Source: Spirochaetota bacterium (lineage in GTDB: Bacteria; Spirochaetota; Spirochaetia; Treponematales; Rectinemataceae). Taken from it: a stretch of DNA of 64,000 nucleotides. Below the pieces are notes generated by a model that made no database searches, had not been told where the DNA came from, and saw nothing but the letters and a program-made list of their open reading frames with translations. Positions 44,678 through 52,198 of the stretch are shown in pieces. Made by a program: the position numbers and the translations under genes. The stretch lies in the NCBI GenBank assembly GCA_029265615.1, contig JAJUIB010000005.1, forward strand, positions 1 through 64,000. The letters run 5' to 3'. How positions within the stretch are numbered: the first letter of the stretch is position 1; each line of letters opens with the position of its first letter.

Positions 44678-45907
44678 ATGAACCACGTTGAACGTCTCTA
44701 CTATACGACCCCCGGCCTTACCGCGGTGGAGGCCCGTGTCCTTTCGGTCGAGGGGAGTTCCGCGAATCCGATTCTCATGCTTGATCCCTGCCTGTTCTAC
44801 CCAGAAGGCGGCGGCCAGCCCTGCGACCTTGGGACCATCGAGGGCGTTCCGCTTGCGGCGGTGGAGAGCGTCGCGGGGCGCATCCTCCATCGCCTCGCCG
44901 CGCCGCTTCCCGGCGGACGCGAGCTAGGGCCGGGGGACCGCGTCACCTGCATTCTCGATGCGGTGCGGCGCCGCGACCACGCCGAGCAGCATACGGGTCA
45001 GCATCTGCTCTCTGCGATCGCCTACCGCCGCCTTGGCTCTGCGACGCGTGGCTTTCATCTCGGTTTAGAGCGTTCGACCGTCGATCTTGCGTTTGAACTT
45101 CCGGCCGAGGAGGCGATCCGCCTCCTCGAAGAGGCAGTGGAAGAGGAAATCGTCCGCGACCGTCCGCTTATCGTGCATGTTTCGCCGCCTGAGGATCTCT
45201 CGAGGCTCGACCTAAGGAAGATGCCGCCTCACGGCGAGGACGAGATCCGCGTGGTCGAGATTGAAGGTCTTGACGCAAGCCCCTGTTGCGGCACGCACCT
45301 TGGGCGAACCAAGGAGCTTCGACTCGTCCGTGTGCTCGCGGCCGAACGGTACAAGGGCATGACGCGCGTGACCTTTGTGGCGGGCGCACGGGCCGCACGT
45401 GAGGCCCGGATGACGGCCTTTCTTGCGCGGGAGGCCGCGCGGATTCTTGGTGCCTCGGTATCGGGCCTGCCCGACGAGTCGGCGCGGCTTGCGGGGCGGC
45501 TCAAAGAGGCCGAAGGCCGGGCCCTTGCGCTTTTCCGCGAGCGCGCCGCGCTCGAGGCGGCGCTTGCGCTTGCGCGGAGGGATGGTGGCGATGAGCGCGG
45601 CCCCCTTGTTTTCCGATTTGACGACCGCGGGGCGGACGCGGCGTTCGAGGCCGTTCGCGCCGCTCAGGCTCTCGGCGCCTCCGCCGTGGCGGCGTCTCTT
45701 CCTGCGCTCACCGCCTGCGCCGTCCTTGAGGGTGGCTCTTCGCTGCGTGGCGACATTGCAAGCGTCCTCGGCCCCCTTGTGGCGGCACACGGGGGGCGCG
45801 GGGGCGGACGGGGCGTCTTTCGCGCATCCTTCCCCGATAAAGCCGCGCTTGAGGCATTTCTCGCCGACTGCACAGCGCTTTTTACCGGTCATGAGCTTGA
45901 CAATTGA
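44678..45907 (+). CDS. AlaX-type alanyl-tRNA editing protein with DHHA1 domain
   Basis: 409 residues. The N-terminal domain resembles the AlaRS editing insert (PCLFYPEGGGQPCDLGTI). The zinc-site HTGQH (in RRRDHAEQHTGQHLLSA) and SPCCGTHL supply the editing-site ligands. A DHHA1 domain with GGRGGGRG ends the protein. No aminoacylation domain is present. It should hydrolyse Ser- or Gly-tRNA-Ala in trans (AlaX-L form). Monocistronic; the marR gene promoter overlaps its last codons. Confidence 0.9.
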   Translation: MNHVERLYYTTPGLTAVEARVLSVEGSSANPILMLDPCLFYPEGGGQPCDLGTIEGVPLAAVESVAGRILHRLAAPLPGGRELGPGDRVTCILDAVRRRDHAEQHTGQHLLSAIAYRRLGSATRGFHLGLERSTVDLAFELPAEEAIRLLEEAVEEEIVRDRPLIVHVSPPEDLSRLDLRKMPPHGEDEIRVVEIEGLDASPCCGTHLGRTKELRLVRVLAAERYKGMTRVTFVAGARAAREARMTAFLAREAARILGASVSGLPDESARLAGRLKEAEGRALALFRERAALEAALALARRDGGDERGPLVFRFDDRGADAAFEAVRAAQALGASAVAASLPALTACAVLEGGSSLRGDIASVLGPLVAAHGGRGGGRGVFRASFPDKAALEAFLADCTALFTGHELDN

Positions 45908-45925
45908 TAAAATTACAAATAACAT
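45897..45925 (+). promoter_or_regulatory. A/T-rich promoter/operator of the MarR gene
   Basis: TTGACA (45897-45902), 17-nt spacer, TAACAT (45920-45925). In 45901-45950, 38 of 50 bases are A or T in an otherwise GC-rich sequence. CAATTG and repeated AATT motifs within it could be operator half sites for the MarR domain or targets of its AT-hook. Confidence 0.65.
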
Positions 45926-45955
45926 TAAAGAAATCCCAATTATTAAGGGGCATGT

Positions 45956-46726
45956 ATGGATGCATCATCCTTGGACGCACGGCGCCTTTTTGAGCTTGCG
46001 GCCCGGGCCTATAACCGACTGCGGCGCGCTGTTGAGCTCAAGCTTCGGGCTGTCGGCATAACCTACGCACAGTATGGCGCGCTCGCCGCGCTTGCACGAT
46101 CGGACGGCGTTTCCCAGTCCGAGCTCGCAAGCCTCCTTGAGACCGATGCGACAACCGCCATGGTTCTTCGCAATTCCCTTGAAAAAAAGGGTTTTGTCGA
46201 GCGCGCAAGCGACGAGCGCGACGGGCGGGTTAGGCGCATTACCATCACGGCCGGGGGGCGCAAGGCGCTCGAAGCAGCCGAAGCCTCCGTTGCCGGCATC
46301 TACGCCGATGCCGAGCCGCTTGTCTCCGAGACCGAGGCGAAAAAGGTCGGCGCGGTTCTCGAGCGCCTTGGCGCGTATGCAAGTGCCACTGCGGACGGCC
46401 TTGATCCACGCAAGGTCAAAAAAGCCGAGGGCGGAAAGCGCCGCGGGCGCCCGCCCAAGGACGAGACTGTTGCGGCGGCGAGAAAGTCCTCCGCCGAGGA
46501 CGCTGGCACGGCAAAAGCCGCGCGCGCGCGGAAGGCCCCCGCATCTTCCGCCAGGGCGCTTACGTCTAAGGCGGCGTCGCCGAAAACGGCGTCGCCGAAG
46601 GGACGGACGAAGGACGTAAAGACGCTCGCAGACGGCGCCATGGCTCGAAAAGGCAAGGCTACCTCTTCCTCCGAGCCCCTGACGGACAAGCGGCCGCGGC
46701 GGCCGCGGAAGAGCACCGAATCCTAA
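45956..46726 (+). CDS. MarR-family regulator with AT-hook / histone-H1-like C-terminal tail
   Basis: 256 residues; AAGGGG lies 5 bases before the ATG. Residues 1-145 are a normal MarR winged helix (SQSELASLLETDATTAMVLRNSLEKKGFVERASDERDGRVRRI). Residues 150-256 are an added, presumably disordered tail of Lys, Ala, Ser, Pro and Arg with an AT-hook KRRGRPPK (161-168), two SPK motifs (208-215) and a terminal KRPRRPRK (245-252). The tail resembles histone H1 and the basic tails of bacterial nucleoid proteins. It may bind A/T-rich DNA, including its own A/T-rich promoter. Ligand unknown. A strong terminator follows. Confidence 0.88.
   Translation: MDASSLDARRLFELAARAYNRLRRAVELKLRAVGITYAQYGALAALARSDGVSQSELASLLETDATTAMVLRNSLEKKGFVERASDERDGRVRRITITAGGRKALEAAEASVAGIYADAEPLVSETEAKKVGAVLERLGAYASATADGLDPRKVKKAEGGKRRGRPPKDETVAAARKSSAEDAGTAKAARARKAPASSARALTSKAASPKTASPKGRTKDVKTLADGAMARKGKATSSSEPLTDKRPRRPRKSTES
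46573..46602 (+). repeat. two in-frame 15-bp repeats in the MarR tail
   Basis: GGCGTCGCCGAAAAC and GGCGTCGCCGAAGGG, coding ASPKT/ASPKG. The unit resembles the GGCGCTCGCCGAAAC repeat in phoR. Confidence 0.8.
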
Positions 46727-46736
46727 TGTCTGCCGC

Positions 46737-46759
46737 AAGCGGCCGCGGCCGCTTTTTTT
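46737..46759 (+). terminator. terminator of the MarR gene
   Basis: AAGCGGCCGCGGCCGCTT is a perfect 18-base palindrome that runs directly into a T7 tract. It lies 10 bases after the stop. Confidence 0.9.
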
Positions 46760-46813
46760 GCCCCGCCTTCGCGCGTGGCGGCCTTGAGGGGCGTGTGCGG
46801 GCTATCTAGAGCG

Positions 46814-47944
46814 CTAGAGGTCGATCGGACGGCGGTTGTCTGCAAGGCGCCGCTCAAGGTATGCGCGGTCGAGCCCGAGATCTCGCACGATCGCGCGCAG
46901 CTGTTCCGCTGAAAGAAGGTTCTGTTCGGCATAGAGGTAGACGAGGGCCCGCTCGGCGATGCAGGGGACTTTGAGCGCGTTCATCTGCATCGGGCAGGGC
47001 TCGGCGCATTTGAGGTAGCGTTTCTCGAGCGAAGCGTAGAGCCGGGAATGTTCAATGGCGCCCGCCACTGCGTTGAGTTCGGCAAGGAGAGGCTTAAGCT
47101 CGCCTCGCGCCGCGGCTTCGCCGAGGGGCTTGAGCGTAAAATAGGCGTACTCCTTACCTGGGAGATAGTGGTGTTCATCGCAGCGCGTGCAATAGTTCGG
47201 CTCACGGCCGTCGGCCTTGGCGCGGTCGCCGCCGATGATAATGAGCGGGTCGAAATAGAGCGCCGGACATTCGAGGTCGTCGATGAGGTAGTATCGGTAG
47301 GTGTAGAGTGAGTCGGCAAGGCAGTCGGAATGCTCGCAATACGCGGAAAGCGGAAACACGTCGGTCGCCGTCTCGAGGAGGAGCCTTGCAGTCTGGTTGA
47401 AGATCTCGCGCCGGAAGTTGAGGACCAGGGTGGGGCAAACAAAGGTGAGGCCGCGCCGCTCGCTTTCGTCTTTCATAAGATAGGCGATGCGCTCGTCATA
47501 AAAGGCCGCCTCGTCGACAATCCACGTGCCCGAGCCTGGGTTTTCCGCAATAAGCGATTCGAGGGCAAATGAATCGCGCGCCTGGCCGAGCCGTGCTCCG
47601 CAGCGTTCGAAGCCGCCACGATAGGCCAGCGCGTCGCTTGGGTAGTCGGGAAAGCGAGCGGCGTCAAGAGTCGAGCGGACGACGAAAATGTCGCGTCGAT
47701 CCGCCCCTGCGCTACTCGTCGCCGCGGCGACGGCCGTTCCTTTGCGGCGGGCGATCGCGCCATCGCGCCATATTCGCGCCGCATATTCGGTCTTTCCCGA
47801 GCCCATCGGGCCGATGACGAGGATGCGCCGCCCCGCCTTCGAAAAATCGAAGTGGTTGAAGGGATGGTGCATGCGTATGCGGGGAAAGCCGAGGTTCCTC
47901 AGAAGCTCGACTTCCCCTTCGCGGCTCGATTCGATATCGCTCAT
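46814..47944 (-). CDS. P-loop protein related to type II thymidine kinase
   Basis: 376 residues, about twice a normal thymidine kinase. Walker A is VIGPMGSGKTEYAARI (about 43-58, close to the GPMFSGKT of Tdk), Walker B-like WIVDEAAFYDERIAYL matches the Tdk DEAQFF position, and a zinc-lasso-like YCTRCDEHHYLPGKEYAYF follows. An additional C-terminal ~110 residues contain CAEPCPMQMNALKVPCIAE, possibly a second metal site. It could be a true nucleoside kinase or a diverged spirochaetal relative. AAGGAA precedes the ATG. The DNA for its SSAG loop is a 16-bp palindrome (47717-47732). Confidence 0.65.
   Translation of the reverse strand: MSDIESSREGEVELLRNLGFPRIRMHHPFNHFDFSKAGRRILVIGPMGSGKTEYAARIWRDGAIARRKGTAVAAATSSAGADRRDIFVVRSTLDAARFPDYPSDALAYRGGFERCGARLGQARDSFALESLIAENPGSGTWIVDEAAFYDERIAYLMKDESERRGLTFVCPTLVLNFRREIFNQTARLLLETATDVFPLSAYCEHSDCLADSLYTYRYYLIDDLECPALYFDPLIIIGGDRAKADGREPNYCTRCDEHHYLPGKEYAYFTLKPLGEAAARGELKPLLAELNAVAGAIEHSRLYASLEKRYLKCAEPCPMQMNALKVPCIAERALVYLYAEQNLLSAEQLRAIVRDLGLDRAYLERRLADNRRPIDL
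47717..47732. repeat. 16-bp perfect palindrome inside the thymidine-kinase-like gene
   Basis: CGTCGCCGCGGCGACG reads the same on both strands. It codes Ala-rich residues (AVAAATS) in a loop after Walker A. Confidence 0.6.
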
Positions 47945-50744: not shown

Positions 50745-52160
50745 TCATTCGGAGCGAATGCCGAGCCGCCGCAGTTGCTCCTGTTCTTCTTTTTGGGCGA
50801 CATACTCGTGTTTTTTCTGGTTCGCCTTGATGAGCGCGCCCTTAATCGTCGTTATCTCGGCTTTGCAACCACGGAGACGCGGCTTGTCTTCGGGGGACAC
50901 GGCCTCCTTGAAAAACTCATCGAGGGCGCCGATCCGCTTCACGAGGCGCTGAAGCTCCTCGATGTTCCGCTCGAGGAATTTGTACGATTGGTCCTCGGGG
51001 GCGGTTTCAAGGCGTTTCCAGGCGGGCCCTGAGCGTTGGAGGAGACCGGCAAGCTGCTTCGCCTTGCGCGTGCATTCCTCCACGAAGCGGCCGAAGTCGA
51101 TCTCCTCCGCGCTCCGCGCCCCCGTTACGGGATCGAGGATCTCTACCTCGTAGCACAGGCCCTTGTTGTCAGGAGCAAAGACGTTGCGGATCGCTTTTTT
51201 GAGCTTGTAGAAAAAACCTTGCTTGCGCGACTCAAGGATCGTCGAGTTGTCGGCGAGCTTTTGTGCGGCGTCTTCAAGCGGATAATTAACGCCCGCAAGT
51301 AGCCTTATCCCCTCGAGGATGACGGCGCGGTAGGATTTTTCGGCCTTTTTTTCGGTCTTTTTCTCCTCTTTGACCTCGAGTCGCTTAAGAAGTTCGTCGC
51401 GGAGCCGCTCGCCGTCGGAGGAGTGATCCTCCATGAGGATTTCTTCGACGAGCTCGGGATAAAAGGGGCGTTCTCCCGCAACATCCGCGAACTTCCGCTT
51501 GATCTGCCGGACTGCCTCGTCTCGATGGGTGATCACCGCGGTGGAGTCGAATGCAAGACCGGGCAGAACGAGCTGGCGTATCTCTAGTTTGTAGCGTTCG
51601 CGGTGGTATGCGGCAAGCTCCTTGAGCGTTCCGAGGATGTCGCGGCTTGCGCGGTCGAGCTGGGATATCGATTCCGCGATGATGCCCGAGGAAAGCTGAT
51701 CCGAGCCGCGCTTCACCATGTTGACGAGTTCGGCGAGACAGCGGGTGTTGAGCTGGTTCGAAGTGTCGGTGAGCTGGGCGAAATTGAAGTATTTGACGAG
51801 CCCCAAGAGCCGTTTTATCCGCCCCATCGAGAGGAAATCGACGCTGAACTGGTAGTAGTTGTTGAGAAAGTCGAGATAAGACTCAAATTGGGAAAGCCGC
51901 ATGCTCATCTGATCGATCTTTTCGGATTCGGAGAAAGGGCCCTCGGGCGGCGTCGTGACTTCGGATATTTTGAGCTCGTACTTGTACGGGTCTTCGTGGA
52001 CGATGCCCTTGCGGTCGAGCACTCCGTACAGCCCCTGGAAGGCGGTCTGGAACAGCTTCCAATCTTCCTTGAGTTTGGGAAGCGCGACGCGGTCGAGGTT
52101 GTCGCGTTTTGCGTCGAGTCTCTCCTCGAGGGCCTTGGTAAAGGCCTGGCTGTCATACAT
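50745..52160 (-). CDS. spirochaete-type helical protein of unknown function
   Basis: 471 residues, highly charged and almost entirely helical, with coiled-coil stretches (LKRLEVKEEKKTEKKAEKS around 255; KKHEYVAQKEEQEQLRRLG at the end). No signal peptide. It is similar in style to the 4105-5676 and 17396-19360 proteins, though I cannot show homology by eye. Start at ATG 52160; a TTG at 52181 lies within the promoter region. Promoter TTGCCT/CATACT ends 9 bases before the ATG, with no clear ribosome site. Function unknown. Confidence 0.7.
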   Translation of the reverse strand: MYDSQAFTKALEERLDAKRDNLDRVALPKLKEDWKLFQTAFQGLYGVLDRKGIVHEDPYKYELKISEVTTPPEGPFSESEKIDQMSMRLSQFESYLDFLNNYYQFSVDFLSMGRIKRLLGLVKYFNFAQLTDTSNQLNTRCLAELVNMVKRGSDQLSSGIIAESISQLDRASRDILGTLKELAAYHRERYKLEIRQLVLPGLAFDSTAVITHRDEAVRQIKRKFADVAGERPFYPELVEEILMEDHSSDGERLRDELLKRLEVKEEKKTEKKAEKSYRAVILEGIRLLAGVNYPLEDAAQKLADNSTILESRKQGFFYKLKKAIRNVFAPDNKGLCYEVEILDPVTGARSAEEIDFGRFVEECTRKAKQLAGLLQRSGPAWKRLETAPEDQSYKFLERNIEELQRLVKRIGALDEFFKEAVSPEDKPRLRGCKAEITTIKGALIKANQKKHEYVAQKEEQEQLRRLGIRSE

Positions 52161-52169
52161 GGTACGCTC

Positions 52170-52198
52170 AGTATGGGCCAAAAATCAGCCTAAGGCAA
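52170..52198 (-). promoter_or_regulatory. promoter with -10 nine bases from the start codon (50745-52160 gene)
   Basis: TTGCCT (52198-52193), 17-nt spacer, CATACT (52175-52170), 9 nt, ATG at 52160. Confidence 0.5.

Follow-up and report, generated by a model that had tools for sequence, protein, structure and literature searches.

A MarR-type regulator with an AT-hook and histone H1-like tail, and a probable operator in its own promoter, in the spirochaete family Rectinemataceae

What does a long, histone-like basic tail do on a sequence-specific bacterial repressor? This question is raised by a gene for a MarR protein (45956-46726, plus strand) in the window, which is the whole 64,000-nucleotide stretch of DNA analysed here. 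The open reading frame runs from ATG to TAA and its translation, MDASSLDARRLFEL...KRPRRPRKSTES, has 256 residues. Pfam matches at residues 34-92 (MarR_2, E 1e-12; MarR, E 6e-10) pass the curated cut-offs (PF12802, 48.4 bits against 27; PF01047, 39.2 bits against 24.6), and the Pfam scan of this frame returned MarR/winged-helix families only, the CarD_CdnL domain not being found. By AlphaFold, run with eight family sequences, residues ~10-148 are confidently predicted with the expected helices and wing, while confidence is low past ~158 (pLDDT mostly below 50 after residue 158). Foldseek matched many solved MarR structures with a probability of 1.00. The MarR winged-helix and dimerisation part occupies residues 1-147 (45956-46396), followed by a disordered basic tail of 109 residues (residues 148-256, 46397-46723) with a net charge of +20. 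An antisense open reading frame (45965-46738, 257 amino acids) was rejected as a gene, because the plus-strand frame matches Pfam and homologues, and GC content by codon position is coding-like in folded part and tail alike.

The tail carries an AT-hook, KRRGRPPK (residues 161-168, 46436-46459), two SPK motifs (residues 208-210 and 213-215, 46577-46600) and a terminal KRPRRPRK (residues 245-252, 46688-46711), the last of which is not conserved among homologues. The AT-hook has been defined as a GRP core flanked by basic residues (PMC11354804), which is the arrangement in KRRGRPPK, and the long, disordered, Lys/Ala/Pro-rich C-terminus is of the H1-like type. The winged helix, the disordered basic tail and all of these motifs had been described in a sequence-only reading of the locus, and translation, Pfam and AlphaFold bear each of them out. 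No cysteine is present in this protein or in any tailed member checked, so an OhrR-type cysteine sensor was rejected.

A sigma-70 promoter conserved in seven genomes lies upstream of the gene (45897-45925, plus strand), consisting of TTGACA (45897-45902), a 17-base spacer and TAACAT (45920-45925); a probable ribosome-binding site, AAGGGG (45945-45950), can be read from the sequence. TTGACA is invariant in the seven genomes and the spacer is 71% identical, versus 33% for the 20 bases before and 31% for the 17 bases after. Spacers are not normally conserved, suggesting that something reads the conserved spacer of the MarR promoter. The best 15-base palindrome has the same register in each of the seven genomes, ranging from perfect-armed TTGTAAAAATTACAA (G001) to diverged GTATTATTATAGTAT (G004); the window copy, TTGATAAAATTACAA (45904-45918; family form TTGtaannnttaCAA), is imperfect (4 of 7 pairs) and shares bases with the upstream gene's stop codon. 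Taken genome by genome, the palindrome does no better than shuffled sequences, and its support comes from the shared register and the conservation of the spacer. An eighth family member (G008), whose protein ends at 150 residues, has a near match, ATTATGACAATAACAAAT, at C8:41184-41201, 22 bases before the start codon. Since a site this similar stands before the gene of a homologue with no tail, the site would belong to the winged helix, independent of the tail, and the spacer palindrome is probably its operator.

The sequence-only reading had also pointed to an exceptionally A/T-rich promoter (38 of 50 bases) as a possible target of the tail. The count is exact at 45891-45940, and its height is uncommon, with 15 separate peaks that high in 761 kb. 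As evidence that the tail binds there, the A/T-richness does not hold up, because the -35 and -10 hexamers and the conserved operator explain it, and a near-identical site stands before the gene of the tail-less homologue. The A/T tract downstream of the -10 box in the window genome is not conserved.

The upstream neighbour, an alaX-type alanyl-tRNA editing gene (44678-45907, plus strand), accompanies the tailed MarR gene in each of the seven genomes (the G001 copy is a fragment at a contig end), and G008 lacks it; the linkage has no evident functional reason. The layout of the MarR gene is monocistronic, with a convergent downstream gene; a terminator-like hairpin and T run (46737-46760, plus strand) matches the consensus, its fold being no better than that of shuffled sequences. 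Elsewhere in the window, an unusual, well-conserved protein of 376 amino acids (46814-47944, minus strand; 72-75% identical in G010 and G018) matches thymidine kinase at residues 141-240 only (E 3e-6), and a TP0584-family protein is encoded at 50745-52181 (E 4.5e-176). The latter indirectly supports a spirochaete origin of the DNA, as do treponeme-like members of the same order, among them a 1.1-Mb genome with 14 MOSP_C matches.

From the computed MarR fold, the tail and the conservation of promoter and operator, we infer, as the best reading, a repressor of its own gene that has an HMGA/H1-like tail to raise its affinity, and we give this a probability of roughly 0.6; repression, the response to a ligand and the contact of the tail with DNA would then fit together as follows. 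The gene would encode a dimeric MarR-type autorepressor, whose winged helices would bind the 15-base palindrome in the -35/-10 spacer of its own promoter. There the repressor would block RNA polymerase, and a ligand would lift the block by releasing it from the DNA. The tail, present in two copies per dimer, would act as a disordered polycation; its AT-hook and Lys/Ala/Pro stretches would add minor-groove and electrostatic contacts with DNA, which would raise affinity and residence time and possibly join distant DNA.

How far the protein might act beyond its own promoter depends on further sites. The extended site, allowing up to 2 mismatches, has one match in its own genome, at its own promoter (control 0), and likewise one each in G001 and G010; at 3 mismatches, only three more sites appear in its own genome. 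A regulon search with the operator gave nothing credible, the relaxed palindrome occurring at 34 sites versus 73 for the reversed control, per strand. One further site, TTGTAATGATATCAA (C38:11110; L100:1501-1515), was considered as a MarR target and rejected; it precedes a rubrerythrin-like gene and then a Fur/PerR-like gene, and is probably a PerR box resembling the MarR operator.

With a single good operator in the genome, any other role would need diverged sites or the tail. This keeps alive, by an argument from absence, a second explanation, which we regard as unlikely: the protein might be mainly nucleoid-associated or architectural, its winged helix setting only its own level while the tail spreads over A/T-rich chromosomal DNA and coats or bridges it. 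The specific domain indeed seems to recognise one target only, the tail is strongly basic and H1-like, and the MarR gene, with its convergent neighbour, seems to stand alone. However, every genome tested has HU-family proteins, a pattern search would overlook a diverged regulon, and, unlike a core nucleoid protein, the gene is missing from many family members, although partly incomplete genomes may explain some of these absences. If this explanation were nevertheless true, a MarR repressor would have been turned into a chromosome-organising protein by gaining a tail in one spirochaete family.

The autorepressor reading gives the tail a role in DNA affinity, and here the homologues are informative. 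Six close homologues, with orthologue-like genes, were found (G001, G003, G004, G010, G015 and G018) in four genera of the host's own family. Far from being absent in orthologues, the tail is conserved in all six, as in-frame, Lys/Ala/Pro-rich extensions of 71-105 residues with net charges of +21 to +31, while the folded parts are 45-60% identical to that of the window protein. Across the seven proteins, the folded parts are near neutral (-1 to +5) and the tails are low in hydrophobic content. GRP(R/K)K stands at tail position 14-17 in four of the six homologues, so that, counting the window protein (GRP[KRP]K), the motif is kept in five of seven; GRP[KRP]K arose in 0.4% of shuffles of the window tail and in 0.1-0.6% of shuffled tails in general. 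Its in-place retention is thus more than chance. The core is missing in two tailed homologues (degenerate GKPKK in G003, none in G004), and SPK occurs outside the window protein in one homologue only, G018. Given its persistence in related species, the tail probably makes DNA binding stronger or broader.

It could be argued that the tail is a neutral low-complexity basic extension, functionless and tolerated while drifting in a GC-rich genome, since its alignment between species is poor and its length varies, and GC-rich DNA easily makes Lys/Ala-rich low complexity. We consider this improbable, as the tail is kept, and is always strongly basic, in seven genomes of four genera despite the divergence of the folded parts, GRPxK is held in place in five of the seven, and such tails are rare, with two genuine cases in the 761 kb sampled (about 28% of a genome of 63% GC), both on DNA-acting proteins. 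Still less probable is that the tail serves some end besides DNA affinity, be it binding of RNA, formation of condensates, contact with a protein partner or control by lysine acetylation. Although RNA and proteins can be bound by AT-hooks and by basic disordered tails, which can also be modified (reviewed in PMC11354804), this tail is joined to a DNA-binding domain, and the part of it that is best conserved is a motif for the DNA minor groove.

The one other real gene in that sample with a comparable disordered K/A-rich tail encodes a topoisomerase IV subunit A-like protein (L145:11054-13405; C20:111054 onward in its own genome), whose C-terminal tail is Lys/Ala-rich. The same topoisomerase-like gene has a basic K/A/P-rich end in G003, G004, G008, G010 and G015 too; in G008, this protein is tailed whereas the MarR homologue is tail-less. 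The family Rectinemataceae may have a preference for such tails on DNA-acting proteins.

A profile was run against 394 genomes from the order and 393 from the phylum; close matches were confined to the family (E 4e-58 or better), followed by a gap; the next-best relatives, from other classes (E 1e-31 to 1e-35), end at about 150 residues. No independent tail was found among 57 named genome loci plus additional relatives, a set chosen by winged-helix similarity in which several loci were unaligned. As the relatives examined outside the family have no tail, it looks like a family-specific addition. Gain within the family would be the simplest reading, with possible loss in G008; the protein tree has long branches and does not settle the order of events. 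L204, a tail-less relative in another class, carries a long palindrome, TTAGTATCATCATAATTATGATAATACTAA, in the promoter of its MarR gene, and TAGTAC-type repeats are common to L203, L205 and L206. Own-promoter operators seem to be old, with changed half-sites. The locus thus offers a natural experiment in how a repressor with sequence specificity acquires a tail for general DNA binding, and tailed, hook-less tailed and tail-less relatives with related operators allow a direct comparison of the tail's contribution.

Among bacterial transcription factors, CarD and WhiB7, both outside the MarR family, are already known to have AT-hook or H1-like tails, and the effect of an HMGA/H1-like tail on a bacterial repressor is a question studied so far mainly with these two. 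A literature search, with most subscription journals outside its reach, found no description of a MarR protein with an AT-hook tail. The best structural and sequence matches of the window protein are MarR regulators (OhrR, MepR, YusO and MarR), with which it shares the winged-helix fold and probable autorepression via a palindrome in its own promoter; the relatives compared end after about 150 residues, whereas the window protein is tailed, and OhrR has a cysteine sensor, unlike the tailed members. Lysine-rich C-terminal extensions of actinobacterial HU proteins and topoisomerase I, in the latter case lysine-repeat tails (PMC7398561), aid DNA binding or processivity (PMC7398561, PMC11229371), but they sit on HU or a topoisomerase and not on a sequence-specific repressor. 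CarD of Myxococcus xanthus uses its folded part to bind RNA polymerase and CarG rather than DNA, and has four hooks and an acidic segment, whereas the window protein has one hook and a folded part that would itself bind DNA. WhiB7 of actinobacteria resembles it in being a transcription factor that acts on its own promoter and has a single AT-hook at its C-terminus; its activity depends on the hook, and its promoter must contain an A/T-rich element (PMC3905903). However, WhiB7 is an iron-sulfur activator bound to a sigma factor, with four cysteines against none in the window protein, and its A/T element lies upstream of the -35 box, while the probable operator of the tailed MarR protein lies in the promoter spacer.
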